A stretch of DNA of 64,000 bases from Morinoia aosen (lineage: Eukaryota; Arthropoda; Malacostraca; Amphipoda; Talitridae). The translations under genes and the position numbers were made by a program. The stretch is from NCBI GenBank assembly GCA_030386875.1, contig CM059563.1, positions 31,038,139 to 31,102,138 of the forward strand, written 5' to 3'. The notes beneath the pieces are model-generated. The model ran no database searches, was not told where the DNA came from, and saw nothing but the letters and a program-made list of their open reading frames with translations. Positions 18,601 through 64,000 of this stretch are shown piece by piece (position 1 is the stretch's first letter; every line of letters begins with the position of its first letter).

Positions 18601-21312
18601 AGTGAGGATTGATCTTGATGCAAATATCATGAAATTGGCAATGATCCAACTGTTTTTTCACAAATATTCGACGAACGCAATAGAAGCAGACTTATTGCAG
18701 CCACTCCAATAAAACCGTGGATGGCCACTCGACTTTTAAATTGTACGCTGGGAATTTTTTGAGCTCTCCTATCAGAGTAAACAATGACTGAAATCGGATC
18801 GTGTGATGTTTTCTTCGGTTTCCAACTCTATTTCTTGCTTCCTTGGGCCGAAGATGAGAAATGAGGGACGCAGAGGTATTCTCTCGAAGCCATTCTTCAA
18901 GGCCTCGAGAAAAAGAGTCCTGGGACTACGTCGTCGGGATCAACCGTTGTTGATAAATGTCTCCTATCAGTCACGGGAAATCCTCATCGGAATTTAATTA
19001 AGGCGCTGAATTGTTTTTGATGTATTATTCTTGGGGCTCCTTCGTGAGACGCTGCCGGAATTCTGAGATTTATTGCTACTGTCATAAATCTGCACGAGTC
19101 TCCTTCGAATTACGTTGAAGTCTCCCCACACCCTCGTGCACTTGACCACTGAGGTGCGAGTCCTTAACGGATCTTGTGGATATATTTCTGGGACGTTGTG
19201 CGGAAACAGTGCAAGTTTTGCTGTACAATCATCATGGTGCATGGCAGGCCAATTCCTAACATGTGGTGTACAAAATATGCCCATTAGTCAGTATGAAGGG
19301 ATTCTTTCAATTCTGCGTTAACGTGTTTTAAATTATGTTTCCTAAAGTTTAACTCACTTCGTGAAAAGAAGACATTCACAAATTTTTCTATCAGGCAGGT
19401 CATACATTTGGTCTCTTTTAAAATGCCGAATAATTTAACACGACAAGATAAGACTAACTGTACCAGAACGCCTTTTGCTCTACTCTGTATTGCGTTTTCG
19501 GCCTAATGTCATTAGCAATTGAATGATCCTCAAGCTTGTCATCTTGTACAGATTGCGGCGCATTTTTTCGTCGGGGTTTCCTTTCTCAAGCTGCTAGTTC
19601 TGAGCTAGGGTAATCGTTTTATTTTGATCAAATGAATCATGTGAGACATATTTCTCATAATCATTATGCATCAACAGCACATTTGGCTCACAATACTCAC
19701 AAGCCCCCCTTTGATACCGCGCCTGGAGCTACAAGCTTTCACCAAAAGCTGCGAATCTTCGTTTGTGCGAATGTATGTTTTGGGTTTTCCGCATTGAACG
19801 GTTCACCTTACATTTATCTTCAACTTTTATTCAAAAGTTCATGTTTTATTCATCTTTTTTGAATATAAACCTAACGAATTTTGACCCTACTAAAATTTGA
19901 CTGCGGTTGAAAAGGTCGTCGTTGAAATCCGCGGATGAAAGTAGGTGCACGGGTCTGCCTTATGAGAATGCCTGGATGTATAACGTACAGTTGTTCACCA
20001 AAATTCAGCGCCATGTTTGTGAATTAATAAATACTGTTGTGTGGTTCCAATAATGGCTAATCGTTAGCAAATTTTAGAAACATGTTTGAGTGGGAAACAG
20101 GGGCAGCATAGAGAGATCAAAAGGACACAGAATCGTAAGGATTCGAAGTATCGCAAAATACGTTAAAAAAGTTGTTTTCCTGATGGGAATTATCAATGAA
20201 GTTGGTAGCTATTAATTCCGTTCGGAGTTAAAGGATTTCTCAAACCCAGGGCCCACCTCCTCCCAACGCCCGGTGACTGCATGAGTGGTGCCAACTTCTC
20301 AAGTGGCCGAAACTCTGTCTATTACACGTCTCCCTCCTCGTACTTTGAGATAGCCTGGGTCCCCATGCTGTAAAAAAACTCTTCTAATTTGCATTAGACT
20401 TCAGAAACGTCGAGCTCAATTTCTTTCTGCATTTGGTCGATTTTCGTAGCAAAGTTGTGGGACATTTCGTTTAATCCTTGGAATTTCTGTGCCTTTCATT
20501 AGTGCCAGAATTTTTGGTCATTGCAAGACGACGAAAGACATTAAAAGCCAACCTAATTGTTATACTTCGAGAGCTCAGCATCAATTTTGAAAGGAAAATT
20601 GTGAACCTAGCTCTGAGAAGCAAGCTACGCATTCTGCTTCCGGCTTGAAATCAAGGAAAGGCTATGGCGGAAACCAGAAATAAAATCGAGGAAAATGGAG
20701 CAAGCCAAAAACAATGAAGGGCGCCACGGCAGCACGCGCAGGCGCTGCATGCGAGCTCCACCAAATTTATGAGGGCGAGTGCATGAATACCGCAATTCTG
20801 CCCATATCCGCCCTGCAAATTATGAGCCTTTAAATTTTTGTCCTCTTGCAGGAAATTAACCAAAAAGCTTCCTGGTTTATAAAAGGCACTGATCGATTCA
20901 AAGCGAGCGGAGTTAATGGTGGAAGCTTTTTATAATTTAGTCGAAAGCTCTGTTTTCTACTTCTCTTCGAATACTTGATTCAGTTAACCTGACATCGAGA
21001 TCGTATTGGCAAATTTACGAAGCGATCCAGGGTTGACGGTGCCAAGATTTTCGAGGAATGGCCGTGGCCATTGGAAGGGTGGGTAAAACACCCGCAGCGG
21101 CGCTGAGTGTGGCATTTGGCCTGATAAATGACCTGTAAAGACATTACCGGCGGGGAGCCATGACTTCGAGTAGCCCTCAACAGCTCTACCACACCGCCCT
21201 CGTTTGCTCGCTCGTCCTACGTACACGCACGTGCCACTGAAAGCAACTTGCCCTTCTGGTGTCCTCTGCTGCGTGTTACGGGCGTATTTTGTCAGCAAGT
21301 GCTTTAACTTTT
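15665..21312. other. Intergenic, no gene recognised
   Basis: AT-rich DNA with short frames only. The interval 16,680-16,830 is compositionally more complex than its surroundings and could be conserved non-coding sequence, but no motif decides this. No transposase or reverse-transcriptase motifs were noticed. Confidence 0.35.
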
Positions 21313-21932
21313 GTTAGGTTCCCTTATAGTGAGATGGATGGAATATCAGTGCAGACAGGGAGATGTCTGATTTTGTTAGGTGCTCTCGTAGTGAGATGAA
21401 TGGAATATCAGTGCAGACAGGGAGATGTCTGATTTTGTTAGGTGCTCTCGTTGTGAGATGAATGGAATATCAGTGCAGACAGGGAGATGTCTGATTTTGT
21501 TAGGTGCCCGCGTAGTGAGATGAATGGAATATCAGTGCAGACAGGGAGATGTCTGATTTTGTTAGGTGCCCTGGTCGTGAGATGAATGGAATATCAGTGC
21601 AGACAGGGAGATGTCTGATTTTGTTAGGTGCCCTCGTCGTGAGATGAATGGAATATCAGTGCAGACAGGGAGATGTCTGATTTTGTTAGGTGCCCTGGTC
21701 GTGAGATTAATGGAATATCAGTATAGACAGGGAGATATCTGATTTTGTTAGGAGCCCTCGTAGTGAGATGAATGGAATATCAGTGCAGACAGGGAGATGT
21801 CTGATTTTGTTAGGAGCCCTCGTAGTGAGATGAATGGAATATCAGTGCAGACAGGAAGATGTCTGATTTTGTTAGGTGCCCTCGTCGTGAGATGAATGGA
21901 ATATCAGTGCAGACAGGGAGATGTCTGATTTT
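21313..21932. repeat. 62-bp tandem repeat, 10 copies
   Basis: Units begin GTTAGG at 21313, 21375, 21437 and then every 62 bases to 21871; the tenth ends at 21932, so 10 x 62 = 620 bases with no length change. Most variation lies in the ten bases after GTTAGG (for example TGCCCTCGTC against TGCTCTCGTA), while the part from GAATGGAATATCAGTGC to the end is nearly invariant. Each unit carries CAGACA, six bases, then TGTCTG, a six-base-pair hairpin. Confidence 0.97.
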
Positions 21933-24900
21933 TCTATCTCGTAACGTGAGCTTGGCAGAACCATGGACCTCTGCATTCCTATACGGAAGCTTGCTGGGGT
22001 CAAACCACTGCCACCACTAAATTTATTGCTGCCACGTATTTCTTGTGTGTTTCATTTTCATGTATGTTTTTCCTTCATTCACGTTAATTGAAGTGTAATT
22101 TGTTTCTTCATTCATTCAGTATGAATTTTGCATTTTTATTTTAATATGTATACCCATTTCATGTTTCATGTAAAACGATACTTATTTTACTTCGAGCCCT
22201 TTCTACATTGACCAAATATACTAACCATTTACTGCTATCACTTACCTCAGAATTTCTATTGTCGCGCGCATTTTACTCAGGTAAGAAAAACAGCTCCAAA
22301 TATAACTAATTCTTACACTTTTCATGCGAACTTTCCATATGTGCCTTCGTCGCATCGAGCTGTCATTGGAGGCATGCAGGAGCTGTCGTGCCTGCATTTG
22401 CATTAGTGCGAGTGACGAGACTTGGCTGCTCTGATGTTGACAAAGTCACTTTCTTGCTTATTCTGGCATCTGCCCGTCGCCAGCCCCTCCTCAGATTGCC
22501 TCCGAAGCCGCTGCAAATCTCTATTGTCTTTATCAGACGCTTTGTTGTCATTTCCAGGGGGATGTTTCAAATCGCGCACGTCGGGGAAATAAAAAGTCCT
22601 CTTTTTGTTAGCGTATTCCTCGTCGCTTGTCCAGAAAGATTGCATCATTACGCTATTCTTTGTGCAGAAACACAGAAGCAAGGGAGAGATTTTAATTAAT
22701 TTTCCCCCTATTTTTCATCTCCCTCGACAAGAGATTCTTATTATCGCATAAATTTCTTTGTGTCGTTGTGATATCTGTTCATAATACCGTCCTGTAGAAT
22801 GGCAACTTATCCTCCCACAGCGTATCAAGTTACCTGCTTGCAGGCAGCTCATCAAGAATCTGACGTTATCAAAACTGCGCTGATAAATTGTGTTTCGTTA
22901 CGACATCGTGTGTTCTCGTTCATCAATCACATTTGATTAGTTCAGGCCATTGTGCAGAGAGCTGCGTCGTTGATATGCAGGGCATGGCATCGCACATGGG
23001 TAAATACGCTTATAATCTTCAACCGTAAATACGCTTTTTCCTTCCCGTCTTTGGCGTTAGCGTTCAACTTAATTAGTTCATCCATTTTTCTCATAACTTA
23101 TCTCGCATCGCACAGTATCTGAGATTTTGCTTCATTAATGAACATCATTTTCCGACATGAGTTTTGCAATTTATTGGATGTGTGCGAATACAAATTGCCC
23201 TTGACTAAAGTGTGTTCCTCCATTTTGAGCTTCATTCTTGCTCGTGCACTCCGCATTTTGCGATTATTATATTATATATTTTCGAAGCATTGCATAACTT
23301 TGGGCTCTGGGCTCCGGGTTGGCATGGTACCTGAGTTCCTCTCAGAGGAGACGTGATTGTGTCTGTTATGGTAAGCGCCAGTGTTTGAGGTAATGGCACT
23401 CGGACGTGTCCCGAGTTGCCTGCTGTGTGTTGATACCGCACGCATGCGTGAATATGTTCAGCTGTTTGGTATGCTATTTTGACTTTCTTTCCTTTGCATG
23501 CCGTTGAATAACTTCTCAATCAGGTAAGCTTCTTCCACTGGTGATAATTGTTCAAGTCTCTGACATTTTTTTCTGGAACTTTGGAGTCATTGCCTTGATT
23601 TTTTTCTCTTTCTCTTTCTGTTTTGCCTTGTTTTCTTCGAGAAGTAAATAACGAAGATGGTGGCCACTGTTGGTTTGAACGCCTTTGTTCAACTTTCTTC
23701 TCTTAACCAATTCCGGTCGGTCCCTGGATTTCAGTATTGTCGAAATAACTATACTCGATATTTTACTAAACAGACCAGAAATTTGGTGTGATGTTAGCCG
23801 TATATTAGATACGTTTATTTGAGACTATTTCAAACCTATTTTCATTGCCGATGCTCGCAATTGGGAATCCATTGTTGCTTTACATTAGGTGCGAATATCT
23901 ACTGGGAGTAGCGTGGCATTTGGTAGCCACCATTAATTATCAAAGTAGGCCTACCGTGTAGTACCTCTCCCAAACTTCGAGGTACAAAAGGGACAGGAGT
24001 TCCCTCAACTTGATATTAATGATGGTGTTTGTATGAGGGGAGTGCTACGAATGTTCCTTAATTCTTGGATAGAGCGGGCATTTGTTCACGCACATCTGGG
24101 TACATATGGCTCGAAATGGCGCTCACTTGAGCGACTGTAACCTCTTCTTCTCTACAACTGTGGTTAGATGCCTAAATTTCTCATAAGTAAAAAATTCAGG
24201 TAGCCTTGCCTAGTAATTAATTATAAAATTTCTCAATAAGTTATTATATACTGAACCTATATTTTATGAGTGAAAACTAAAATGGACATTGACTATCAGA
24301 AGTCCATTGTCCTCGCTCAATTTTTAATCTTATTCCTACATTATTGTGTGATTTTGATTTATAGCAGACGATATGCTGGACCAGCTTCTACGGTGCTTGC
24401 GTTTGGATGCCAGTCGGGGTTACGCACTGCCAACGAGCAAAGACGCACGACTCCTTGCGAGAGATTGATGGATTCTTCGATAACATTCTGCCGTGCAGGT
24501 TGATGTGAGAGTATTAGAAAACTGTGCCCATAAATATTCGAAGTTTTTTGTAATCTGCCATTTGATGTATAGATGTATGCATGCGGTAATTGTCTATCGG
24601 ATCTAACATGACGCCCATTTTGCGGTTGAGCTACTATTATTCGAGTAGTGAAAATTCTCATCAAATTTACGTGAAGGTACGCGCTAATTCCAACTCAAGC
24701 TGCGAGACCTGTCTGTCCCTTACATGCCGTGGTCCCTCATCTGAGACACAAGTACGCGGACTCGCTCTGTCAAGTTAGCTGGAGGGAGTAACGGTCACAC
24801 ATCGGTGCAGTTGTGGACTGACCCAACAATGTCATATTCCTTCAGATGGATCGAACTCCAGATCTAAGGCTGTTTGTTAGTCCTGGGAGTTGACACAAAT

Positions 24901-35338: not shown

Positions 35339-35997
35339 CGTATATCAAGTTAAAAAGAATTTATATGTAAAGAATGTATGACAATCACTTGCGACAACTT
35401 AGATCCGTTTGTTTTTCCAGACTCACTCTCTTCAAAACTCCACCCCCTCCACTGTGATGGTAATTGAGAAAAAAGTAATTCTATTAACAGATAAATTATG
35501 TCTAAATTAAATAAATGGGTGCTGTCCACCATGTTAATGTTCTATTTTATCACAATAATTATTTTATTGAACTTTTGTTACCCTCTACCAAGAAAACTGG
35601 GCGGCATAATACGATTAGCTCCGGATCCTCCAAAGTCAGCTTTTTGTTGTAAATAAGAAGACATGAAATCTGCACTTGCGTCATTTTGAGATAGCGACAC
35701 TCATTCCTGAAATATCAGCTGTAAGCGGCCAATGGTGTTCATTGCCTGTCTGCTAGGTGTAGTTTAATTGACTGGTGTGAGGATGTACGTAGTTTCTTCA
35801 AATAATTTTCAGCATCATTTCGCATAATACCTTTAACTGCGCTTTCAGTTCCCTGTTAACCGTTATTCCTCCGTCCTGACGCAACATACATTGCCTATTT
35901 AGTTAGCGTGCAACAATCATTAATTGGTTTTTAAGAGCAGGATTACTTGATGACAAGTGATCCAGTAGGGTGAAGAGATTGATTTTCCTTTGGAAAA
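35339..35997. other. Intergenic, nothing recognised
   Basis: AT-rich DNA between the Tc1-like relic and the satellite array. No feature supported. Confidence 0.4.
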
Positions 35998-38900
35998 CTT
36001 TTGTACGTCTCATACCTGGTAAATCTTTTGTACGTCTCATACCTGTTAAATCTTTTGTACGTCTCATACCTGTTAAATCTTTTGTACGTCTCATACCTGT
36101 TAAATCTTTTGTACGTCTCATACCTGTTGAATCTTTTGTACGTCTCATACCTGTTAAATCACAACTTTCAAATCTTTTGTGCGTCTCATACCTGTTAAAT
36201 CTTTTGTACGTCTCATACCTGTCAAATCTTTTGTACGTCTCATACCTGTTAAATCTTTTGTACGTCTCATACCTGTCAAATCTTTTGTACGTCTCATACC
36301 TGTTAAATCTTTTGTACGTCTCATACCTGTTAAATCACAACTTTCAAATCTTTTGTACGTCTCACACCTGTTAAATCTTTTGTACGTCTCATACCTGTTA
36401 AATCTTTTGTACGTCTCATACCTGTCAAATCTTTTGTACGTCTCATACCTGTTAAATCTTTTGTACGTCTCATACCTGTTAAATCTTTTGTACGTCTCAT
36501 ACCTGTTAAATCTTTTGTACGTCTCATACCTGTTAAATCACAACTTTCAAATCTTTTGTACGTCTCATACGTGTTAAATCACAACTTTCAAATCTTTTGT
36601 ACGTCTCATACCTGTTAAATCTTTTGTACGTCTCATACCTGTTAAATCACAACTTTCAAATCTTTTGTACGTCTCATACCTGTTAAATCACAACTTTCAA
36701 ACTTTTGTACGTCTCATACCTGTTAAATCTTTTGTACGTCTCATACCTGTTAAATCTTTTGTACGTCTCATACCTGTCAAATCTTTTGTACGTCTCATAC
36801 CTGTTAAATCTTTTGTACGTCTCATACCTGTTAAATCTTTTGTACGTCTCATACCTGTTGAATCTTTTGTACGTCTCATACCTGTTAAACTTTTGTACGT
36901 CTCATACCTGTTAAATCACAACTTTCAAATCTTTTGTACGTCTCATACCTGTTAAATCACAACTTTCAAACTTTTGTACGTCTCATACCTGTTAAATCTT
37001 TTGTACGTCTCATACCTGTTAAATCTTTTGTACGTCTCATACCTGTCAAATCTTTTGTACGTCTCATACCTGTTAAATCTTTTGTACGTCTCATACCTGT
37101 TAAATCTTTTGTACGTCTCATACCTGTTTAATCTTTTGTACGTCTCATACCTGTTAAATCACAACTTTCAAATCTTTTGTACGTCTCATATCTGTTAAAT
37201 CTTTTATACGTCTCATACCTGTTAAATCTTTTGTACGTCTCATACCTGTTAAATCACAACTTTCAAATCTTTTGTACGTCTCATACCTGTTAAATCTTTT
37301 GTACGTCTCATACCTGTTAAATCTTTTGTAGGTCTCATACCTGTTTAATCACAACTTTCAAATCTTTTGTACGTCTCATACCTGTTAAATCTTTTGTACG
37401 TCTCATACCTGTTAAATCTTTTGTAGGTCTCATACCTGTTTAATCACAACTTTCAAATCTTTTGTACGTCTCATACCTGTTAAATCTTTTGTACGTCTCA
37501 TACCTGTTAAATCACAACTTTCAAATCTTTTGTACGTCTCATACCTGTTAAATCTTTTGTACGTCTCATACCTGTTAAATCTTTTGTACGTCTCATACCT
37601 GTTGAATCTTTTGTACGTCTCATACCTGTTGAATCTTTTGTACGTCTCTTACCTGTTGAATCTTTTGAACGTCTCATACCTGTTAAATCTTTTGTACGTC
37701 TCATACCTGTTAAATCTTTTGTACGTCTCATACCTGTTAAATCACAACTTTCAAATCTTTTTTTCGTCTCATACCTGTTAAATCTTTTGTACGTCTCATA
37801 CCTGTTGACTCTTTTGTACGTCTCATACCTGTTGAATCTTTTGTACGTCTCATACCTGTTGACTCTTTTGTACGTCTCATACCTGTTGACTCTTTTGTAC
37901 GTCTCATACCTGTTGAATCTTTTGTACGTCTCATACCTGTTGACTCTTTTGTACGTCTCATACCTGTTGAATCTTTTGTACGTCTCATAGCTGTTGACTC
38001 TTTTGTACGTCTCATACCTGTTGACTCTTTTGTACGTCTCATACCTGTTGAATCTTTTGTACGTCTCATACCTGTTGACTCTTTTGTACGTCTCATACCT
38101 GTTGAATCTTTTGTACGTCTCATACCTGTTAAATCTTTTGTACGTCTCATACCTGTTGAATCTTTTGTACGTCTCATACCTGTGAAATCTTTTGTACGTC
38201 TCATACCTGTTAAATCACAACTTTCAAATCTTTTTTACGTCTCATACCTGTTAAATCTTTTGTACGTCTCATACCTGTTAAATCACAACTTTCAAATCTT
38301 TTGTACGTCTCATACCTGTTAAATCTTTTGTACGTCTCATACCTGTTAAATCTTTTGTACGTCTCATACCTGTTAAAACACAACTTTCAAATCTTTTGTA
38401 CGTCTCATACCTGTTAAATCTTTTGTACGTCTCATACCTATTAAATCACAACTTTCAAATCTTTTGTACGTCTCATACCTGTTAAATCTTTTGTACGTCT
38501 CATACCTATTAAATCCTTTGTACGTCTCATACCTGTTAAATCACAACTTTCAAATCTTTTGTACGTCTCATACCTGTTAAATCTTTTGTACGTCTCATAT
38601 CTGTTGAATCTTTTGTACGTCTCATACCTGTTGAATCTTTTGTACGTCTCATACCTGTTAAATCTTTTGTACGTCTCATACCTGTTGAATCTTTTGTACG
38701 TCTCACACCTGTTAAATCTTTTGTACGTCTCATACCTGTTAAATCACAACTTTCAAATCTTTTTTACGTCTCATACCTGTTAAATCTTTTGTACGTCTCA
38801 TACCTGTTGAATCTTTTGTACGTCTCATACCAGTTAAATCACAACTTTCAAATGTTTTGTACGTCTCATACCTGTTAAATCTTTAGTACGTCTCATACCT

Positions 38901-41646
38901 GTTAAATCACAACTTTCAAATCTTTTGTACGTCTCATACCTGTTAAATCTTTTGTACGTCTCATACCTGTTAAATCACAACTTTCAAATCTTTTGTACGT
39001 CTCATACCTGTTCAAATCTTTTGTACGTCTCATACCTGTTAAATCACAACTTTCAAATCTTTTGTACGTCTCATACCTGTCAAATCTTTTGTACGTCTCA
39101 TACCTGTCAAATCTTTTGTACGTCTCATACCTGTTAAATCACAACTTTCAAATCTTTTGTACGTCTCATACCTGTCAAATCTTTTGTACGTCTCATACCT
39201 GTTAAATCACAACTTTCAAATCTTTTTTACGTCTCATACCTGTTAAATCTTTTGTACGTCTCATACCTGTTAAAACTTTTGTACGTCTCAGACCTGTTAA
39301 ATCACAACTTTCAAATCTTTTGTACGTCTCATACCTGTTAAATCTTTTGTACGTCTCATACCTGTTAAATCTTTTGTACGCCTCATACCTGTTGAATCTT
39401 TTGTACGTCTCATACCTGTTGAATCTTTTGTACGTCTCATGCCTGTTGAATCTTTTGTACGTCTCATGCCTGTTAAATCTTTTGTACGTCTCATACCTGT
39501 TAAATCTTTTGTACGTCTCATACCTGTTAAATCTTTTGTACGTCTCATACCTGTTAAATCTTTTGTACGTCTCATACCTGTTAAATCACAACTTTCAAAT
39601 CTTTTGTACGTTTCATACCTGTTAAATCTTTTGAAGGCTCATACCTGTTAAATCACAACTTTCAAATCTTTTGTACGTCTCATACCTGTTAAATCTTTTG
39701 TACGTCTCATACCTGTTAAAACTTTTGTACGTCTCATACCTGTTAAATCTTTTGTACGTCTCATACCTGTTGAATCTTTTGTACGTCTCATACCTGTTAA
39801 AACTTTTGTACGTCTCATACCTGTTAAATCTTTTGTACGTCTCATACCTGTTGAATCTTTTGTACGTCTCATACCTGTTAAATCTTTTGTACGTCTCATA
39901 CCTGTTAAATCTTTTGTACGTCTCATACCTGTTAAAACTTTTGTACGTCTCAGACCTGTTAAATCACAACTTTCAAATCTTTTGTACGTCTCATACCTGT
40001 CAAATCTTTTGTACGTCTCATACCTGTTAAATCACAACTTTCAAATCTTTTTTACGTCTCATACCTGTTAAATCTTTTGTACGTCTCATACCTGTTAAAA
40101 CTTTTGTACGTCTCAGACCTGTTAAATCACAACTTTCAAATCTTTTGTTCGTCTCATACCTGTTAAATCTTTTGTACGTCTCATACCTGTTAAATCTTTT
40201 GTACGCCTCATACCTGTTGAATCTTTTGTACGTCTCATACCTGTTGAATCTTTTGTACGTCTCATGCCTGTTGAATCTTTTGTACGTCTCATGCCTGTTA
40301 AATCTTTTGTACGTCTCATACCTGTTAAATCTTTTGTACGTCTCATACCTGTTAAATCTTTTGTACGTCTCATACCTGTTAAATCTTTTGTACGTCTCAT
40401 ACCTGTTAAATCACAACTTTCAAATCTTTTGTACGTCTCATACCTGTTAAATCTTTTGAAGGCTCATACCTGTTAAATCACAACTTTCAAATCTTTTGTA
40501 CGTCTCATACCTGTTAAATCTTTTGTACGTCTCATACCTGTTAAAACTTTTGTACGTCTCATACCTGTTAAATCTTTTGTACGTCTCATACCTGTTGAAT
40601 CTTTTGTACGTCTCATACCTGTTAAAACTTTTGTACGTCTCATACCTGTTAAATCTTTTGTACGTCTCATACCTGTTGAATCTTTTGTACGTCTCATACC
40701 TGTTAAATCTTTTGTACGTCTCATACCTGTTAAATCTTTTGTACGTCTCATACCTGTTAAGACTTTTGTACGTCTCATACCTGTTAAATCTTTTGTACGT
40801 CTAATACCTGTTAAATCTTTTGTACGTCTCATACCTGTTAAAACTTTTGTACGTCTCATACCTGTTAAATCTTTTGTACGTCTCATACCTGTTAAATCTT
40901 TTGTACGTCTCATACCTGTTAAATCTTTTGTACGTCTCATACCTGTTAAATCACAACTTTCAAATCTTTTGTACGTCTCATACCTGTTAAATCACAACTT
41001 TCAAATCTTTTGTACGTCTCATACCTGTTGAATCTTTTGTACGTCTCATACCTGTTAAATCTTTTGTACGTCTCATACCTGTTAAATCACAACTTTCAAA
41101 TCTTTTGTACGTCTCATACCTGTTAAATCTTTTGTACGTCTCATACCTGTTAAATCACAACTTTCAAATCTTTTGTACGTCTCATACCTGTTAAATCACA
41201 ACTTTCAAATCTTTTGTACGTCTCATACCTGTTAAATCACAACTTTCAAATCTTTTGTACGTCTCATACCTGTTAAATCTTTTGTACGTCTCATACCTGT
41301 TAAATCACAACTTTCAAATCTTTTGTACGTCTCATACCTGTTAAATCTTTTGTACGTCTCATACACGTTAAATCACAACTTTCAAATCTTTTGTACGTCT
41401 CATACCTGTTAAATCTTTTGTACGTCTCATACCTGTTAAATCTTTTGTACGTCTCATACCTGTTAAATCTTTTGTACGTCTCATACCTGTTAACTCTTTT
41501 TTACGTCTCATTCCTGTTAAATCACAACTTTCAAATCTTTTGTACGTCTCATACCTGTTAAATCTTTTGTACGTCTCATACACGTTAAATCACAACTTTC
41601 AAATCTTTTGTACGTCTCATACCTGTTAAATCACAACTTTCAAATC
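35998..41646. repeat. 5.65-kb satellite: 27-bp unit plus 14-bp spacer
   Basis: The array is built from a 27-base unit (core GTACGTCTCATACCTG, opening CTTTT and closing TTAAAT) and a 14-base module, CACAACTTTCAAAT, inserted at irregular intervals. From the lengths I estimate 180-190 copies of the unit and several dozen spacers. On the minus strand each unit reads MRRTKDLTG and contains its own ATG, but the 14-base module shifts the frame at every insertion, which argues against coding. Common variants are TTGAAT or TTGACT for TTAAAT, and TGTCAAAT. Both ends are abrupt: the left abuts GGAAAA, the right stops after a spacer at CTCCAGTG. An 825-base higher-order duplication is noted in the findings. 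Confidence 0.97.
39204..40755. repeat. 825-bp higher-order tandem duplication inside the satellite
   Basis: Diagnostic variants recur 825 bases apart. TCTCAGACCTG occurs at about 39,289 and 40,114. A TTTTTTACG variant lies just upstream of each. The unusual junction TTGAAGGCTC is at 39,631 and 40,456. The order of 27-base variants and spacers between these marks is the same in both halves, with only a few substitutions, so the duplication is recent relative to the array. Confidence 0.8.
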
Positions 41647-42420
41647 TCCAGTGCTGTTCGTTTCCGACTCCTGTCATGTGTTAACGGCGAGAACATATAT
41701 GATACAAATTAGTTACATCAGTTAATAACAGAGTTCATTGAGAATGGTTATCTTCAAACAAATCGTTGGTGCCTGAAATTTGAAGGCATTGCTTGAGGTG
41801 CCAAATGTTTGAGTGGCGATTCCAAAACTTTACCATAGTCAGTCATATTGTCTAATACTGTAGAAATTAGCGAATAACCTTAGCCTTAAAACGTGTTTGA
41901 ACAGAATTTTTGAGATGAATATACCTAAACTTTGCTTGTGCCCATAATGTTGTTATTAAGCTCATATTTCTATGTTAGGATCGGCCTTTTAAATTGTAGC
42001 ATAAAATTAAGTCACCCAGGCCTCTCTTTCTATGTTGCTCTGCTATTTAGGATTTCCTTTTCTTAAAAGGCTATGAAAATTCATGACTTGATCTGCCCCG
42101 AAATTAGTGTGCGTTGAAGAGAATCGTTTCTGGCGAGAAATTGGTCAAGGCTTGAAGTTCGAGTTTAGTCGGGCCTGGTTTCCAATTAACCGAAGAAGAC
42201 TAAGAGCTCTCGAGTCTTGTAATGGGAAGTCATCATTTACAGGGACGGCTGCTTCATTTTTTGGTGCTTCTCGTGATAAAGAAGCTGAGCTCCCCTAAGT
42301 TTGGTTCCTGTCCCTTATCCTGACGACGGCCTTATCGTTCAAGAACATCGCACGCTCGGGCCTTCCCTAGCGCGTCTTGCCTACACGTCCGCTCCTGACG
42401 CCCGCCTTGTTAGGCGCAAC
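41647..42420. other. Intergenic, nothing recognised
   Basis: Flank of the satellite. It has overlapping short plus-strand frames (63 and 88 codons from 42,107) but no family resemblance. The second of these frames runs into the degenerate repeats. Confidence 0.35.
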
Positions 42421-53630: not shown

Positions 53631-55246
53631 TGGTGTGCACCGCGGTATACTGTGGTGTGCACCGCGGTATACTGTGGTGTGCACCGCGGTATACTGTGGT
53701 GTTCACCGCGGTATACTGTGGTGTGCACCGCGGTATACTGTGGTGTGCACCGCGGTATACTGTGGTGTGCACCGCGGTATACTGTGGTGTGCACCGCGGT
53801 ATACTGTGGTGTTCACCGCGGTATACTGTGGTGTGCAGCGCGGTATACTGTGGTGTGCACCGCGGTATACTGTGGTGTGCACCGCGGTATACTGTGGTGT
53901 GCACCGCGGTATACTGTGGTGTTCACCGCGGTATACTGTGGTGTGCACCGCGGTATACTGCGGTGTGCACCGCGATATACTGTGGTGTGCACCGCGGAAT
54001 ACTGTGGTGTGCACCGCGGTATACTGTGGTGTGCACCGAGGTATACTGTGATGTGCACCGCGGTGTACTGTGGTGTGCACCGCGGAATACTGTGGTGTGC
54101 ACCGCGGTATACTGTGGTGTGCACCGCGGTATACTGTGGTGTGCACCGCGGTATACTGTGGTGTGCACCGCGGTATACTGTGGTGTGCACCGCGGTATAC
54201 TGTGGTGTGCACCGCGATATACTGGGGTGTGCACCACGGTATACAGTGGTGTGCACCGCGGTATACTGTGGTGTGCACCGCGGTATACTGTGGTGTGCAC
54301 CGCGGTATACTGGGGTGTGCACCGCGGTATACTGTGGTGTGCACCGCGGTATACTGTGGTGTGCACCGCGGTATACTGGGGTGTGCACCGCGGTATACTG
54401 GGGTGTGCACCGCGGTATACTGGGGTGTGCACCGCGGTATACTTTGGTGTGCACCGCCGTATACTGGGGTGTGCACCGCGGTATACTGTAGTGTGCACCG
54501 CGGTATACTGTGGTGTGCACCGCGATATACTGGGGTGTGCACCATGGTATACTGTAGTGTGCACCGCGGTATACTGGGGTGTGCACCGCGGTATACTGTG
54601 GTGTGCACCGCGGTATACTGGGGTGTGTACCGCGGTATACTGGGGTGTGCACCGCGGTATACTGAGGTATGCACCGCGGTATACTGTGGTGTACACCGCA
54701 GTATACTGTGGTGTGCAGCGCGGTATACTGTGGTGTGCACCGCGGTATACTGTGGTGTGCACCGCGGTATACTGGTGTGTGCACCACGGTATACTGTGGT
54801 GTGCACCGCGGTATACTGTGGTGTGCACCGAGGTATACTGTGGTGTGCACCGAGGTATACTGTGGTGTGCACCGCGGTATACTGTGGTGTGCACCGCGGT
54901 ATACTGTGGTGTGCACCGCGGTGTACTGTGGTGAGCACCGCGGTATACTGGGGTGTGCACCGCGGTATATTGGGGTGTGCACCGCGGTATACTGGGGTGT
55001 GCACCGCGGTATACTTTGGTGTGCACCGCGGTATACTGGGGTGTGCACCGCGGTATACTGTGATGTGCACCGCGGTATACTGGGGTGTGCACCGCGGTAT
55101 ACTGTGGTGTGCACCGCGATAAACTGGAGTGAGCACCGCGGTATACTGTGATGTGCACCGCGGTATACTGGGGTGTGCACCGCGGTATACTGTGGTGTGC
55201 ACCGCGGTATACTGGGGTGTGCACCGCGGTATACTGGGGTGTGCAC
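53631..55246. repeat. 22-bp satellite array, about 73 copies
   Basis: The 22-base unit is TGGTGTGCACCGCGG followed by TATACTG. It repeats from 53631 to 55246 with point changes only. It carries three palindromic hexamers in a row (GTGCAC, CCGCGG, GTATAC) and two CpG. As 22 is not a multiple of three, every frame cycles through all three phases of the unit; none of the six contains a stop, giving spurious frames of up to 519 codons. The peptides they predict (such as VHRGILWCAPRYTVVCTAVY on the plus strand) are by-products, not proteins. The unit variant with CTGTGG predominates on the left, CTGGGG becomes common after about 54,300. Confidence 0.97.
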
Positions 55247-57668: not shown

Positions 57669-59051
57669 TCAGTTCCGGCACTCGCTTCTGTGAGACTCGT
57701 CATCGTCAATTTTGAAGAAATTGAATTACTTGCAGATGAAGCCACAGTCCCCTGGGGAATCTGTACTTTCAGTTGTCTTAGTAGAGGTCGAGCACTGGCC
57801 ACAGTCGAAGGATGGCGCAGAAGTTCCACACTGAGAAGAGCAGGTCGGCGCTTCGCATTCGCTGGTGCTGGTGCTGGAGGTGTCCGACGAGCTGCACTGC
57901 GGCAGCGAGCACCTGCAGCAGCTCCTGGGGTAGCCGCAGCGGCAGAGCGAGCGCAACTTCGTGTTGCTGCGACTGCTGGCTCCCGAGCTCGTACTGCACG
58001 ACGACTTGCACTTGCGACGGCTTTCGCTTGGCGTTGCACATTGGTCACAAGAGTCCAAGACCAAGAGTTTTTCACTACTGCTAGTCGTATCTGTACAAGT
58101 GTAGCTTTTTGATCCTCCCGTTGAAGTGCACGACGCCTCTACACATTAACATTTAAGCTTCTTCGGCAAACAGCACTTTGCCTTGTTGCTCAAACACTGT
58201 TTTTGTGCAGCGCATTTTAAAGCTATCGTGCATTGCGATGGACATCCTGAACTTGAACAATCGCTGGAATATCGAGAAAGTTGACCACACTTCTTGCACA
58301 GGGAACTTGATGTCGTACATTTATTCAGAGGGGCGCTTTCGGATTCGTCAATGGTGCATTTCGAGGAACACAATGACGAAGCGGATTAGGCCAGTCCTTG
58401 GAAAGCACATGCAGATAGGACAGCGCACGAGGAGTCTTCGGTCGTAGAACACTCAGTCTTACCAGCGCTTGCAACTTTTTCTGTGTTATAGGAACAGGAA
58501 GGGTTCCGTTTGTTTGTGAATTTACCGTCAGACCTTTTAGTTGCGACTGAACAAGATGTTAGATTGTCTTACCGGAAGACTTTTTGAGCTTCACGCTCAG
58601 AGGCTTTCACAAGATTGCTAATCCGATCGTTGATGCTCTCTTCCCCTCTGTCGGACGATTCACAGTCAGAACGATTATCTGAAGGTTCAACAGCTTTTTT
58701 GTGACAACTCAATTTCACAGACTGGTCTGGGCAGCAACACCCCATTGCACAAGTGAAGTTGTAATTACACTGAGGTACGGCTTCCTCTTCACACTTCTTT
58801 ACAGTGGTGCACGCTTGGCTTACGTTCCTTTGAAAAACTTTTAGAAGCTTCGACTTCACGTTTTTACTTTATTTCACTTCCTTCTGTGCACATGAACTGC
58901 ACACGTTATTTTCATTTGAACTTGAAGTGCTGCAAGTGCTTTCTTCGTATCTTTTCTGACATTAGCAACAAGTTTTCAACGCCTTAATTTCATTGGTGCT
59001 TGAACTCGTACTTGTAGAGGTCTTACATTTACCTTTAAAGGCCTTTTCCAT
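57669..59051 (-). CDS. Cys/Ser-rich protein frame with six in-frame TAA codons
   Basis: From ATG at 59049-59051 (context GGAAAATGG; TAG codons lie in frame upstream) one frame runs 460 codons to TGA at 57669-57671. About 55 of 454 sense residues are Cys, and Ser, Thr and Lys are abundant, as in CKTSTSTSSST near the start, GCCCPDQS at codons 104-111 and CRCGYPRSCCRC in the last third. TAA lies in frame at codons 30, 61, 161, 222, 302 and 442 (58962, 58869, 58569, 58386, 58146, 57726). There is no TAG, TGA or frameshift inside, and composition is the same on both sides of every TAA. No signal peptide or membrane segment is visible, and I recognise no family; Cys spacing is irregular, unlike metallothioneins. 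GC content rises sharply below about 58,040. It may be a recoded or readthrough gene, a young pseudogene, or a spliced gene whose introns mimic coding sequence. Confidence 0.5.
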
Positions 59052-62000
59052 TTTCCTTAGGCTTCGTGTTATCTAGTAACAGAACTAAAGTTTAGTATTT
59101 CTTCTCAGCTTTAAAAATTTGGTTTTCGAGCGTGGCTTTGTACTCCTGCGTAAACATGATACCAATTCCGAATTTCTATCGATAAATTACCGAATTAAGA
59201 AAAAGGCGTTCCACGAGAACGAATTATTTATAATCATCATACAATGTGCAAAAAATAGTGTTAGTTTTGGATCTTTCTACAAGTTAAGAAATGATAATAG
59301 CTTCAGAGGTTTCAATTTTTACCGTCGTCTGGTCAAACATTGGAAGAGTGCCGTCGTGAAGTACACTGAGCAGAACGATCGCAACCAAAAATTTGGAGCA
59401 ATAAGCTGCTCTGGCACATTTGCTCTGCATTACTGTTTCCTTCGTTGTAAAAAATTTTGGTTAAGACTTTTACGAGCATTCTGTCCTGACTTTCATTATT
59501 TTACCTTCATGTTTTGCCACAGTAATGCATCTAAAAATTTAAATATGAAGTAAAATTACACTTCCTCAGTTACACGGTATAGTATTTCCGTAAGCGTTTT
59601 ATCTGTTGAGGATAATGATATTTGCTCGCGTTTTGTGGCCAACTTTGAACTATCAATTTGCTTTATGAATGACAAATGTACTAACTGCAGAATTTACATG
59701 CGTTTGTCAAAATTTATGATGCTAAAGGATTCCTGATTAGCTGTAGGGCCTGGCACTGCATCGATGCTAATGCATGGGTAAAATGATATGGTTTACAGGT
59801 GTCATTGCTCATTTCTGTTAATATACCCAATCGTTTTTGCGCGTCGTCCTCGAGAGCCTATATTTACGTACGCACGATAGTCTGCTATTTGGTCTGGCTC
59901 CATGGCCGCCACATCTCCTTGACTCCAACTATGCACTCTCGGCCGAGGAACATTTACCATTAATTTCGTAAAGTTCTGGACCAATCTATCTGACTGGCAG
60001 TGGCGTGATCAGTTTGGGTACGGTGCACTTATAGTTGCCCGTATTCTAACTTTTGGCAGTCACTTTCTAGTCACTCACCTACCAAGTTTTTATGATAATG
60101 GAACGTACTCATCAAAAACTATTGCATTTAAAACTACTTTACTTTAGATTATAGATACGTGTAAGGAGTGATGAATATGTACTAACATGAGAAAACACAC
60201 GAATAGTCCTGTGTTTTACCTAACTTTTTATGAATAATAAAGTATTTCATTTGAGCAAAACATACCGTGACTCCCAAGCTCCTACACCTGCCTCAAATGT
60301 GTAGGAAACTTTCATTTTCGTAAAAAAATATTTTTCAATTTTTTATCCATCAATGGAAGGGAACTGAAGAAATGATGAATAATCTGTAAATATTTTTGTA
60401 AATAATTCCTCTGTTCTCTACTTGTTTCTTCAGCCGAAACCATGTGATGTTTTAGCTACAGTAAAAGCATTCTTTTTCTTCTAGGTGGTTTCTCTTTTGA
60501 AATGATGTCTGCAGTGCGTACTAACTTCGAGCATTCAGTTACCACTAGTTCTTATTTTTGTGGTATTAAATAGCTTTAAATGCTGATATGTTAACTGTTT
60601 TAAATTCGTCGCTCTGATGCTTGACACCATCATTTACCTCGTCCATTGCTGCAGTAAGGCCTGCTGTTACGAGTTAAGTGAGGACCAAAATTTTCTAAAT
60701 ATATTTTCATCTTGTAACAAACGTTACTCTACCACGCCCGAGTGAATTCCATCATTCTTTACGGTACTGCTGTGGTAATCACTGGTTTTTGACCCATATT
60801 TTCATTCACATGCGCTTATTTTCCCTTTGTAGGTGCGAGCTTCTTTCATCAAGGGGTTTTATCAGGTCAATTCTACGCGCTGTGCGGCGCCCTAGTGCCT
60901 GCGTAGAAGAGTTTATAGCTTCGAATTGTTACTTGGCAGACCGACTCGACGATCGCCCATCAGGCGTCCTGTAATTTTGGATGCTGCTACAATTACGTCC
61001 TTTTGTAGAAAGCCTGATGGACCGCGTGTGATGACAGCGGGCGCACGCAACTCCGCCTCGCTTGCCTGTGCCACTCCGGGCTGCTTGCCTGGAAACTGGA
61101 CTTCAGAATCGGAGCACAGCTTCTGCCTCGACTGCTGACCCTTGGCTGCTCGGTTCAGGATCCTCAACTCTACACGAGTGCAGGAAGTGCATTGCGCATT
61201 ATTATTCAACTGATTATATTTGCAGATATGAGAAGAAAATCAATTTTGCTGGCTTTAACATAAGGTTCCGTGTATGAGGGTGCTGATTCAGGTCTTCACC
61301 TTGACAATCCTTAAGGAAATTTTAACCTCTAAATTCATATACAAATTTGTACAGGACTCGTCCTAGGCTCCCCTGTTGACCAAATGTAACGAAACACTGT
61401 GTAAGATTCACGAAGGTTATTCCCATTAAGATGACGTTTGGTGTTTACTTTCCGCAGACAAAACTTCATTGTTGAAGGCAGAGTATGTACAAGTCCGAAA
61501 AGTTTATCGTTTTTGTTTACTTTGAGATTTCGATTCATTCGAAGTTAATACGCAGTTCGACTGTCTATTGTTTGCGCGACAGGAAATGCCTGTAGGGTTC
61601 AAGCTGCATAAGGCCATTGTAGGGCCGCTAAACCACTCTTAAGACATGTGTCCTCCATGAACTTATTGAAAACTTTGTACGTGCAGTGCAGTACCAACGC
61701 TCAAATGGCAGCTCCAGGTATTAGATTCATGCCCTGAACACTATTGTGTTCCAACATACTGTGGTCTCTGAAATTACAAATTCATCGGATGTAAATGACT
61801 TTGAAGTTCTGTGCTTCTTTTACTAATTTTTTAAGCTACCAAATTCTTCCAAAATGCGATGTGTCATTGCGTGCAAATTTGAAATAATTTCATAGCCCCA
61901 TTTTCCATTTTTGCTCCAGGTAGCACATTCAACTTGAGCTCCAGCTCTCATGCCCCTAAACTTGCACCGCGTTGGCAGCATCTTTAGAAAGACCAAATCT

Positions 62001-64000
62001 CTCGTAATCAGCTTTCATGTTTTTATATGCATTTAAAATGGCCTTTTCTCAGCGCACCATTCAATATGAGAATGTGCATCTTTGTTTCGAGATGTCAGCA
62101 TTTGTTTTCCATGCAGTGCTGCGTGGCTGGTCGTAAGCTTCTTTGATCGCCTTACATGTAGAGATCCTTTCACTGCTCGCTAAGACCCCTTCAGTTTACT
62201 TGAGCTGGTCTGATTTCATGCACGAATGCGAGTCTGCACCTTAATTCTAACTAAACACAATGAACTGAGCGACGTCTTCAACGCGTAATTAAAATTGAAT
62301 ATGTCGGTGTATTTTTACTGTGTCGCAAAAGAGCTAATGCGGAGAATAACAATGATGTTATTGTCATGTGTGTGTATTCTCTGATATCACAATAATTACC
62401 ACTCAATCGCTCATTGACATTTTCCCGTTTTAATGAAGTGATACCTCTGGAGTCTCCCTCAAGATGATTGAGATGAAGCGATATCGTGAGGCACATTGGC
62501 GATTGATTACAGATGGATTGGAGTAGATGTATCACCTATACGAGTAGATGCAGAGGTTTTAAAAATGAAACCGAGCTGAACGGAATCTTAAACTGTTAAG
62601 ATCATACAATATGATGGCATAAAGTATCTAGTGTGGAAGTATACATTGAAAAATGTTGGAGCCGATCGTTTTCTTATGAATGTTGTTTGCTAGTTGGAAG
62701 TTGGTTATGGCTGGTAAATTTTAATGCTAATGACCAAAGTTTTCGTTTGTTCTTGATTGTGAAAAGGATTCAAAAGTCCAATGCTCGGTCATCGTTTACA
62801 TCTGAGATGCTTGTTTTTTATTTGTTGTTATATTCTGATTATTGAAAAGCGTTCAATTGTAAACTGTATACATAGCATGGCATTTCAGCACCTATAGCGT
62901 TAGTAAAATTTCTGTCATGTATTCATCGAAGAAATTTAGACATTTGGTGGATGATAGTTTGGTCATACGATTATTACGAGGCTGAAAAAAATGTCTGGAC
63001 TCAGTAGGAATTTTCCATAGAACCGGTGAATTAGCCTCAGGGAGATGTGCCGGTAGTGGCTGTCTTCGTCCGTATGCCTTTGTCAACTAGAACTCCTCGC
63101 TGGTAACCCTAAAGTTACTCTCTAGAAAATCAGCCACACTTGTTGTGTTGCGGGTGTAGATTCGTGGTTAGTTAAGCTTTGACTACATAATTCTTCACTT
63201 CTCTTTTTAATTTTTAGGAAAGGCCGACTTGCGATACCATCCTCTTGCACGAGTGCTTTCGTCTTTGTCACTCTATTATCGTTTCACTATACCGTCATAT
63301 CGATATCCTTACTTGTACGATACTTTTGTCAGCAAAGCGAGCTGTGCCAACTGAGACTTGAAATTTTGCGCCCTTGCGCGCCTCTTGAACTTCACTGAAT
63401 TTCTCTGCGATAATCACTTAACTGACCGGAAGCGGAGGCAACACTCTAACTAAATAAATGAATGAACAAATAAATCTCGTGACATCTCTCCGTGAGCTCC
63501 CTCGATGTAGCGAGGGGTGCCCGGACGCCAAGTCGCGCATAATTCACTCCCCGCTCCACTACCTCCCCATACTCGGCTGCTCCCACGTCCTGGGAAAACA
63601 TCATCGTGCGTAGCACAGTATTTACGACGGTAGGAAACCTAAGCCAGCTACGCACATACTGAGAAATTTCTTAAAGCATCGTCATTATAGGATTTTTTCT
63701 TAAAGGGCTGTGTGGAGTCAACGTGGAAAATGAGGGGAAAGCTACCGAGAAAATGACCCTGACGAAGAACGAGAGAGGGAGAAGGAATGGCAGCGAAAAT
63801 ATAAATGCTGCTTTCAGCGTTTTTTCATTGATGTGAAAAGCTGAGAAACATTCGACGGAATGAGCATCAAATCTTAACAGAACAATTTTCTTCAATTAAC
63901 GAACATTTTTATTCCCACGGTATCTAAAGTTACGGAAATTAAAAGTCTTGTGTACCGCCAACGTAACCCAAAACAGGGCACCAGAATATTTTACCAGCTC
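59052..64000. other. Intergenic, no gene recognised
   Basis: AT-rich, with GC-richer patches near 60,880-61,150 and 63,480-63,600. A 144-codon plus-strand frame at 59,119-59,553 and a 48-codon minus-strand frame at 59,284-59,430 (signal-peptide-like start) are open but unrecognised. No promoter for the Cys-rich frame could be fixed. Confidence 0.35.

Follow-up and report, generated by a model that had tools for sequence, protein, structure and literature searches.

The minus strand of the window (the whole stretch of 64,000 nucleotides analysed here, C8:31038139-31102138 in a Morinoia aosen assembly that comprises 29 contigs and 1.99 Gb) carries a Cys/Ser-rich frame of 460 codons that contains six TAA codons and no other internal stop. 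We read it as an orphan gene that is dead or dying stepwise, at a probability of roughly 0.6. The frame was formerly coding and TAA is an ordinary stop in this genome. Comparison with decayed relatives elsewhere in the assembly indicates that two of the six stops are old, and next to these relatives the absence of frameshifts and other stop kinds is still unusual.

The frame runs from an ATG at 59051 to 57669 (461 codons counting the end codon), with TAA at codons 30, 61, 161, 222, 302 and 442, no TAG, no internal TGA and a terminal TGA at 57671-57669. A recount thus bears out the frame described in the earlier note, which left the strand unstated, and its figure of some 55 Cys codons is exactly 55 (29 TGT and 26 TGC). 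The open stretch begins already at 59072 (467 codons), and the only in-frame ATG codons are codons 1 and 103. The features are as follows, where L014 to L019 denote related sequences elsewhere in the genome.

57669..59051, minus strand: the whole Cys/Ser-rich frame, with 460 codons, six internal TAA and the final TGA (from codon count and frame comparison)
58743..59093, minus strand: 5′ part, pieces of which recur as fragments L014-L018 (on C19, C6, C9, C16 and C20; DNA search)
57669..58482, minus strand: 3′ part, matched by the decayed relative L019 on C6 (differences in excess at third positions)
59049..59051, minus strand: ATG of codon 1; third base A in L015, L017 and L018
58962..58964, minus strand: TAA1, codon 30, flanked by Cys codons; also in L015, L017 and L018, CTA in L014
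58869..58871, minus strand: TAA2, codon 61; also in L014, L015 and L016
58743..58745, minus strand: ATG of codon 103, a possible later start; retained in L016
58569..58571, minus strand: TAA3, codon 161, within a donor-like GTAAGA; region outside the coverage of all relatives
58386..58388, minus strand: TAA4, codon 222; AAA in L019
58146..58148, minus strand: TAA5, codon 302, flanked by Cys codons; likewise TAA in L019
57726..57728, minus strand: TAA6, codon 442, probably the natural stop; CAA opposite in L019
57604..57609, minus strand: AATAAA, candidate polyadenylation signal, 62 bases past the first base of the terminal TGA

The contexts of the six TAA codons are unlike one another, and the spacing of Cys codons continues across TAA1 and TAA5. 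The constant composition that had been claimed across the stops holds apart from codons 121-180, which contain 2 Cys only, and the 18 codons past TAA6, which contain 1. Because these last 18 codons differ in appearance, TAA6 is probably the natural end of the frame. A scan of 59040-64000 for upstream exons, at one threshold and in one phase, returned no candidates.

That the frame was formerly coding follows from the distribution of its Cys codons and from the way in which an old relative differs from it. The frame holds 55 TGY codons, compared to 6 and 14 in the other two sense frames, and none of 2000 second-order Markov sequences reached 55 in any sense frame. In each of the seven segments between stops Cys codons are most numerous in this frame, the narrowest margins being 5 versus 4 (codons 162-221) and 1 versus 0 (the last segment). 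Between the window copy and L019, 103 of 251 third positions differ, compared to 140 of 504 first and second positions (p 0.0002), and this excess therefore implies that one line or both were under coding selection for some period. The scarcity of stops is in itself weaker evidence than the Cys-codon bias: among 2000 first-order Markov copies of this region, 2 contained 460 or more codons in a row with no more than six stops, and the window holds another long stretch (422 codons, 6 stops, 22088-23353, plus strand) outside the four tandem arrays that were masked for this search.

The earlier note had raised the possibility that TAA is read as an amino acid. The ciliate-type code is NCBI table 6; if TAA is read, this frame opens and ends in TGA, as in that code, while the frame differs in having no TAG and the genome in stopping at TAA. 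Among histone genes (best 150 of 712 candidates scored, 30 loci extracted for end counts), TAA is the end codon in 30/30 H3 and 13/13 H4 genes. A genome-wide reassignment is excluded by these 43 ends, and, judged from these other genes, TAA serves as an ordinary stop in the nuclear genome, of 1.99 Gb. A very narrow pattern for a Gln-like suppressor tRNA gave 0 matches in the genome. Contamination by an organism with another code, also raised earlier, was discarded, since a 69 Mb contig surrounds the window and the relatives are on other chromosomes. The scored histone candidates (best 150 of 712) hardly differ from one another and form arrays at intervals of about 10-25 kb on C4, C22, C23, C26 and C27.

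A DNA search of the genome, which scores best candidates only, returned six places beyond the window itself. Five short ones match the 5′ region: L014 (C19; 144 bases at 95% identity), L015 (C6, 80%), L016 (C9, 85%), L017 (C16, 83%) and L018 (C20, 75%). The sixth, L019 on C6, matches the 3′ part at 68%. L014 has a 13-base direct repeat at its very ends, where 500 random pairs gave at most 11 bases; in L017 a 7-base repeat goes with an A-rich 3′ end; the 10-base repeat of L015 lies outside the fragment ends; and L016 and L018 have no flanking repeats of at least 6 bases. Owing to the flanking repeats and the A-rich end, L014, and less surely L017, look like bits of transcript inserted by retrotransposition. 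A dispersed repeat of about 350 bases (75-82% identity) also occurs near several fragments (L016 5258-5594 and 8420-8775; L018 1493-1837; L019 765-1375) and is perhaps a short mobile element.

TAA1 is present in 4/5 sequences that cover it and TAA2 in 4/4. Because both are carried by fragments that differ by 5 to 25%, the alignments indicate that these two stops existed before the dispersed fragments arose. None of the three fragments that cover codon 1 has an ATG there and, since the third base is A in all three, the ATG is probably new in the window copy. Where relatives differ from a window TAA, the opposite codons are CTA (TAA1, L014), AAA (TAA4, L019) and CAA (TAA6, L019). The TAA that L019 has at TAA5 was not accepted as proof of shared ancestry, as, by rough estimate, the odds that at least one of three TAA codons would agree by chance are about one in five. 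As regards a stop conserved with coding selection on both sides, TAA1 and TAA2 are shared, the 5′ fragments carry no coding signature, and the agreement at TAA5 is maybe coincidence.

Comparison of the window copy with each of the five 5′ fragments gave no third-position excess (p 0.29 to 0.86). The eight 5′ changes assigned to the window copy fall 4, 2 and 2 by codon position, again without a third-position bias; here ties in the ancestor were resolved toward the window copy, a rule that the relative-rate tests do not use. In these tests (alignment A2), changes proper to the window copy and to the fragment numbered 2:18 and 6:16 for L015 (p 0.05 for 6:16), 2:11 and 8:12 for L017 (p 0.50 for 8:12), 6:23 and 8:17 for L018 (p 0.11 for 8:17), and 0:6, 0:3 and 1:4 for L014 (p 0.03, 0.25 and 0.38). 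All retained rows lean to fewer changes in the window copy, although some are non-significant and sites are shared among rows. Rows with L014 as outgroup were dropped as invalid because L014 is the nearest relative, and those from a wider alignment (A1; among them L016, 7 versus 11, p 0.48) were dropped for ends that are not homologous. Taken together, these counts suggest that the window copy has changed more slowly than the fragments, its 5′ part included.

The relatives also provide a yardstick for the kinds of lesion that decay brings. In the register of the window frame they gained 5 TAA, 1 TAG and 7 TGA of their own, along with 26 frameshifts (1 in L015, 3 in L018 and 22 in L019), as expected from the earlier argument that a decaying gene should collect TGA, TAG and indels as well. 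With this sample of 39 lesions, six TAA out of six has a probability of 0.003, which upholds the claim that six stops of one kind are unlikely under decay, and six lesions without a frameshift (26 frameshifts against 13 own stops) likewise have a probability of 0.003. With TAA1 and TAA2 set aside as old, and TAA6 as natural, only three lesions count, and the probabilities become 0.057 for all TAA and 0.045 for no frameshift. Simulation under four mutation models, with frameshifts at 26 per 281 substitutions (281 being the estimated share of 340 differences that fall on the relatives' side), gave 1258 runs with six stops, 6 of them all TAA and none of these 6 free of frameshifts. A search of transposons for calibrating stop kinds was uninformative, the best 150 of 14424 candidates all being without stops. 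The window copy thus has six TAA only, without the frameshifts and mixed stop kinds that are typical of, if not required for, a decayed pseudogene; their absence lowers the odds of decay.

Stepwise death would order these observations as follows. The 5′ part would have lost its start long ago, before the fragments arose, and TAA1 and TAA2 would then have stood in RNA unread in this frame and been harmless because the start was already lost. The 3′ part, perhaps from the ATG of codon 103 to TAA6, would have remained under selection for longer and acquired TAA3, TAA4 and TAA5 late; these would work as ordinary stops, with the full-length protein no longer made. Such a history explains the shared stops, the missing ATG of the fragments and the presence of a third-position bias in the 3′ but not in the 5′ part. 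The AAA and CAA of L019 opposite TAA4 and TAA6 are as expected if these stops came late, and the decayed state of the fragments and L019, with all three stops and frameshifts, was counted in favour of a dying gene. The TAA-only run without frameshifts would be due in part to inheritance, in part to the short time since death and in part to the picking of an extreme by the scan; since a scan picks extremes, the absence of frameshifts is less telling. Several points stand against stepwise death. No frameshift occurs in 460 codons, and what is left over here is moderately unlikely; all six stops are TAA, an improbable outcome for six and less so for the three late stops; no in-frame ATG follows codon 103; and the 5′ part of the window copy has changed slowly where no coding constraint is expected, which under stepwise death would need some use of the 5′ RNA.

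It is the frameshift lack and the slow 5′ change for which a living gene, its TAA codons read through by the ribosome, accounts better than stepwise death does. Such a "pseudo-pseudogene" would read through five or six stops to give a Cys-rich protein of 441 or 460 residues. Besides the TAA-only frame free of frameshifts and the slow change of the 5′ part holding TAA1 and TAA2, it gains from the Cys spacing, unbroken over TAA1 and TAA5, and has a precedent, going by the text available from PMC5615767, in a Drosophila receptor with a premature stop that is read through. Yet the histone genes of the same genome end in TAA, the six stop contexts differ, and the relatives have no common residue at the TAA codons; the fragments do not share the start ATG, the 5′ changes have no third-position bias, and stops reported as read through are usually TGA (PMC5100048, in the portion available). 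In our judgement it is unlikely that a crustacean-like animal has here a living gene whose every full-length product requires readthrough of at least five TAA, two with Cys codons on both sides, and whose frame was kept while two of these TAA have been present since before the fragments.

Removal of the TAA codons by splicing from a living gene is a still weaker candidate, and we consider it improbable. Sites resembling donors (59032, 58572 and 58462) and acceptors (58547 and 58264) do allow frame-keeping pairs that span 486 bases over TAA1-3 and 309 bases over TAA3-4, but the two overlap and so are mutually exclusive, and TAA5 and TAA6 lie outside every pair that passed the thresholds. Compatible introns over each internal TAA were thus not found with this scoring, which was rough and relied on hand-typed matrices. 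Moreover, TAA1 and TAA5 are directly flanked by Cys codons, and the alignments of L014 and L015 run through TAA1 and TAA2 with gaps of just 6 and 1 bases. A gene of foreign origin, from a donor that reads TAA as sense, inserted repeatedly in pieces with the window copy the youngest, would explain why TAA codons are shared and why a clean young copy stands beside dirty older ones. Against this, the frame has zero TAG beside 16 CAA/CAG and 6 TAA codons, CGN makes up 12/19 of its Arg codons, unlike ciliate Arg codon usage, and GC3 reaches 0.83 in codons 361-420. Two viral scans and one prokaryote scan, with one frame piece each, also gave no confirmed relative, and we regard a foreign origin as very improbable.

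Stepwise death sets the frame beside known decayed pseudogenes with dispersed retro-fragments, with which it shares in-frame stops, relatives that bear all three stops and frameshifts, and the 13-base direct repeat flanking L014; it differs in being TAA-only and free of frameshifts. According to the portion of PMC5100048 available, readthrough is abundant both in insects and in the single crustacean examined; Anopheles has 35 double and 5 triple candidates. Those insect and Daphnia genes resemble the present frame in having in-frame stops followed by coding sequence, and in multiple readthrough, whereas here the stops number five or six and are all TAA, and there they are usually TGA and strongly conserved. 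Ir75a of Drosophila sechellia, as presented in the available part of PMC5615767, likewise has a pseudogene-like sequence with a premature stop, but a single one whose translation was demonstrated, while the present frame is known from sequence alone. The literature searched, available in part, yielded no animal gene with six TAA codons read through, which is no proof of absence.

If the frame is ordinary, an orphan gene has been caught dying, and its fragments of different ages give the genome's own lesion spectrum. If it is read through, it holds more read-through stops than any animal gene met in the literature searched, the fragments would show that stops were long kept, and multi-stop readthrough in crustaceans becomes directly testable.

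The gene appears to be an orphan, the searches made with pieces of it having turned up no relative beyond this genome. With its stops replaced by X, the frame had no Pfam or NCBIfam match above a curated cut-off, and five of its seven pieces had weak matches below cut-off (E 0.085 to 0.54); a search of solved structures gave a single match (E 0.36). Weak protein matches on C4, C17, C16 and C12 (E 0.48 to 7) were put down to chance, the one on C16 alone being inspected.

Several repeats elsewhere in the window were recorded. A 5.6 kb array at 35994-41647 mixes a 27-base unit with 41- and 68-base variants and has a GC skew of about -0.3 to -0.37, a strong C-poor/G-poor skew on one strand. At 53631-55246, a GC-rich 22-base tandem repeat (73.5 copies, 93% matches) leaves both strands with long open frames, the longest with a start codon being 519 aa, and its Pfam matches are weak and repeat-driven. 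Minisatellites lie at 999-1662 (39 bases, 17 copies, 97%) and 21309-21932 (62 bases, 10 copies, 94%). The mitochondrial COI (L023) resembles an amphipod crustacean's. In the assembly at large, C27 has 14 of 24 COX1 matches, 11 of which have no in-frame stop under the standard code, unlike mitochondrial copies, and this COX1-bearing sequence may be bacterial. A full-length COX1 of mitochondrial type occurs five times with equal score (twice on C26, twice on C28 about 18 kb apart, and once on C29); the assembly therefore contains several copies of mitochondrial DNA.
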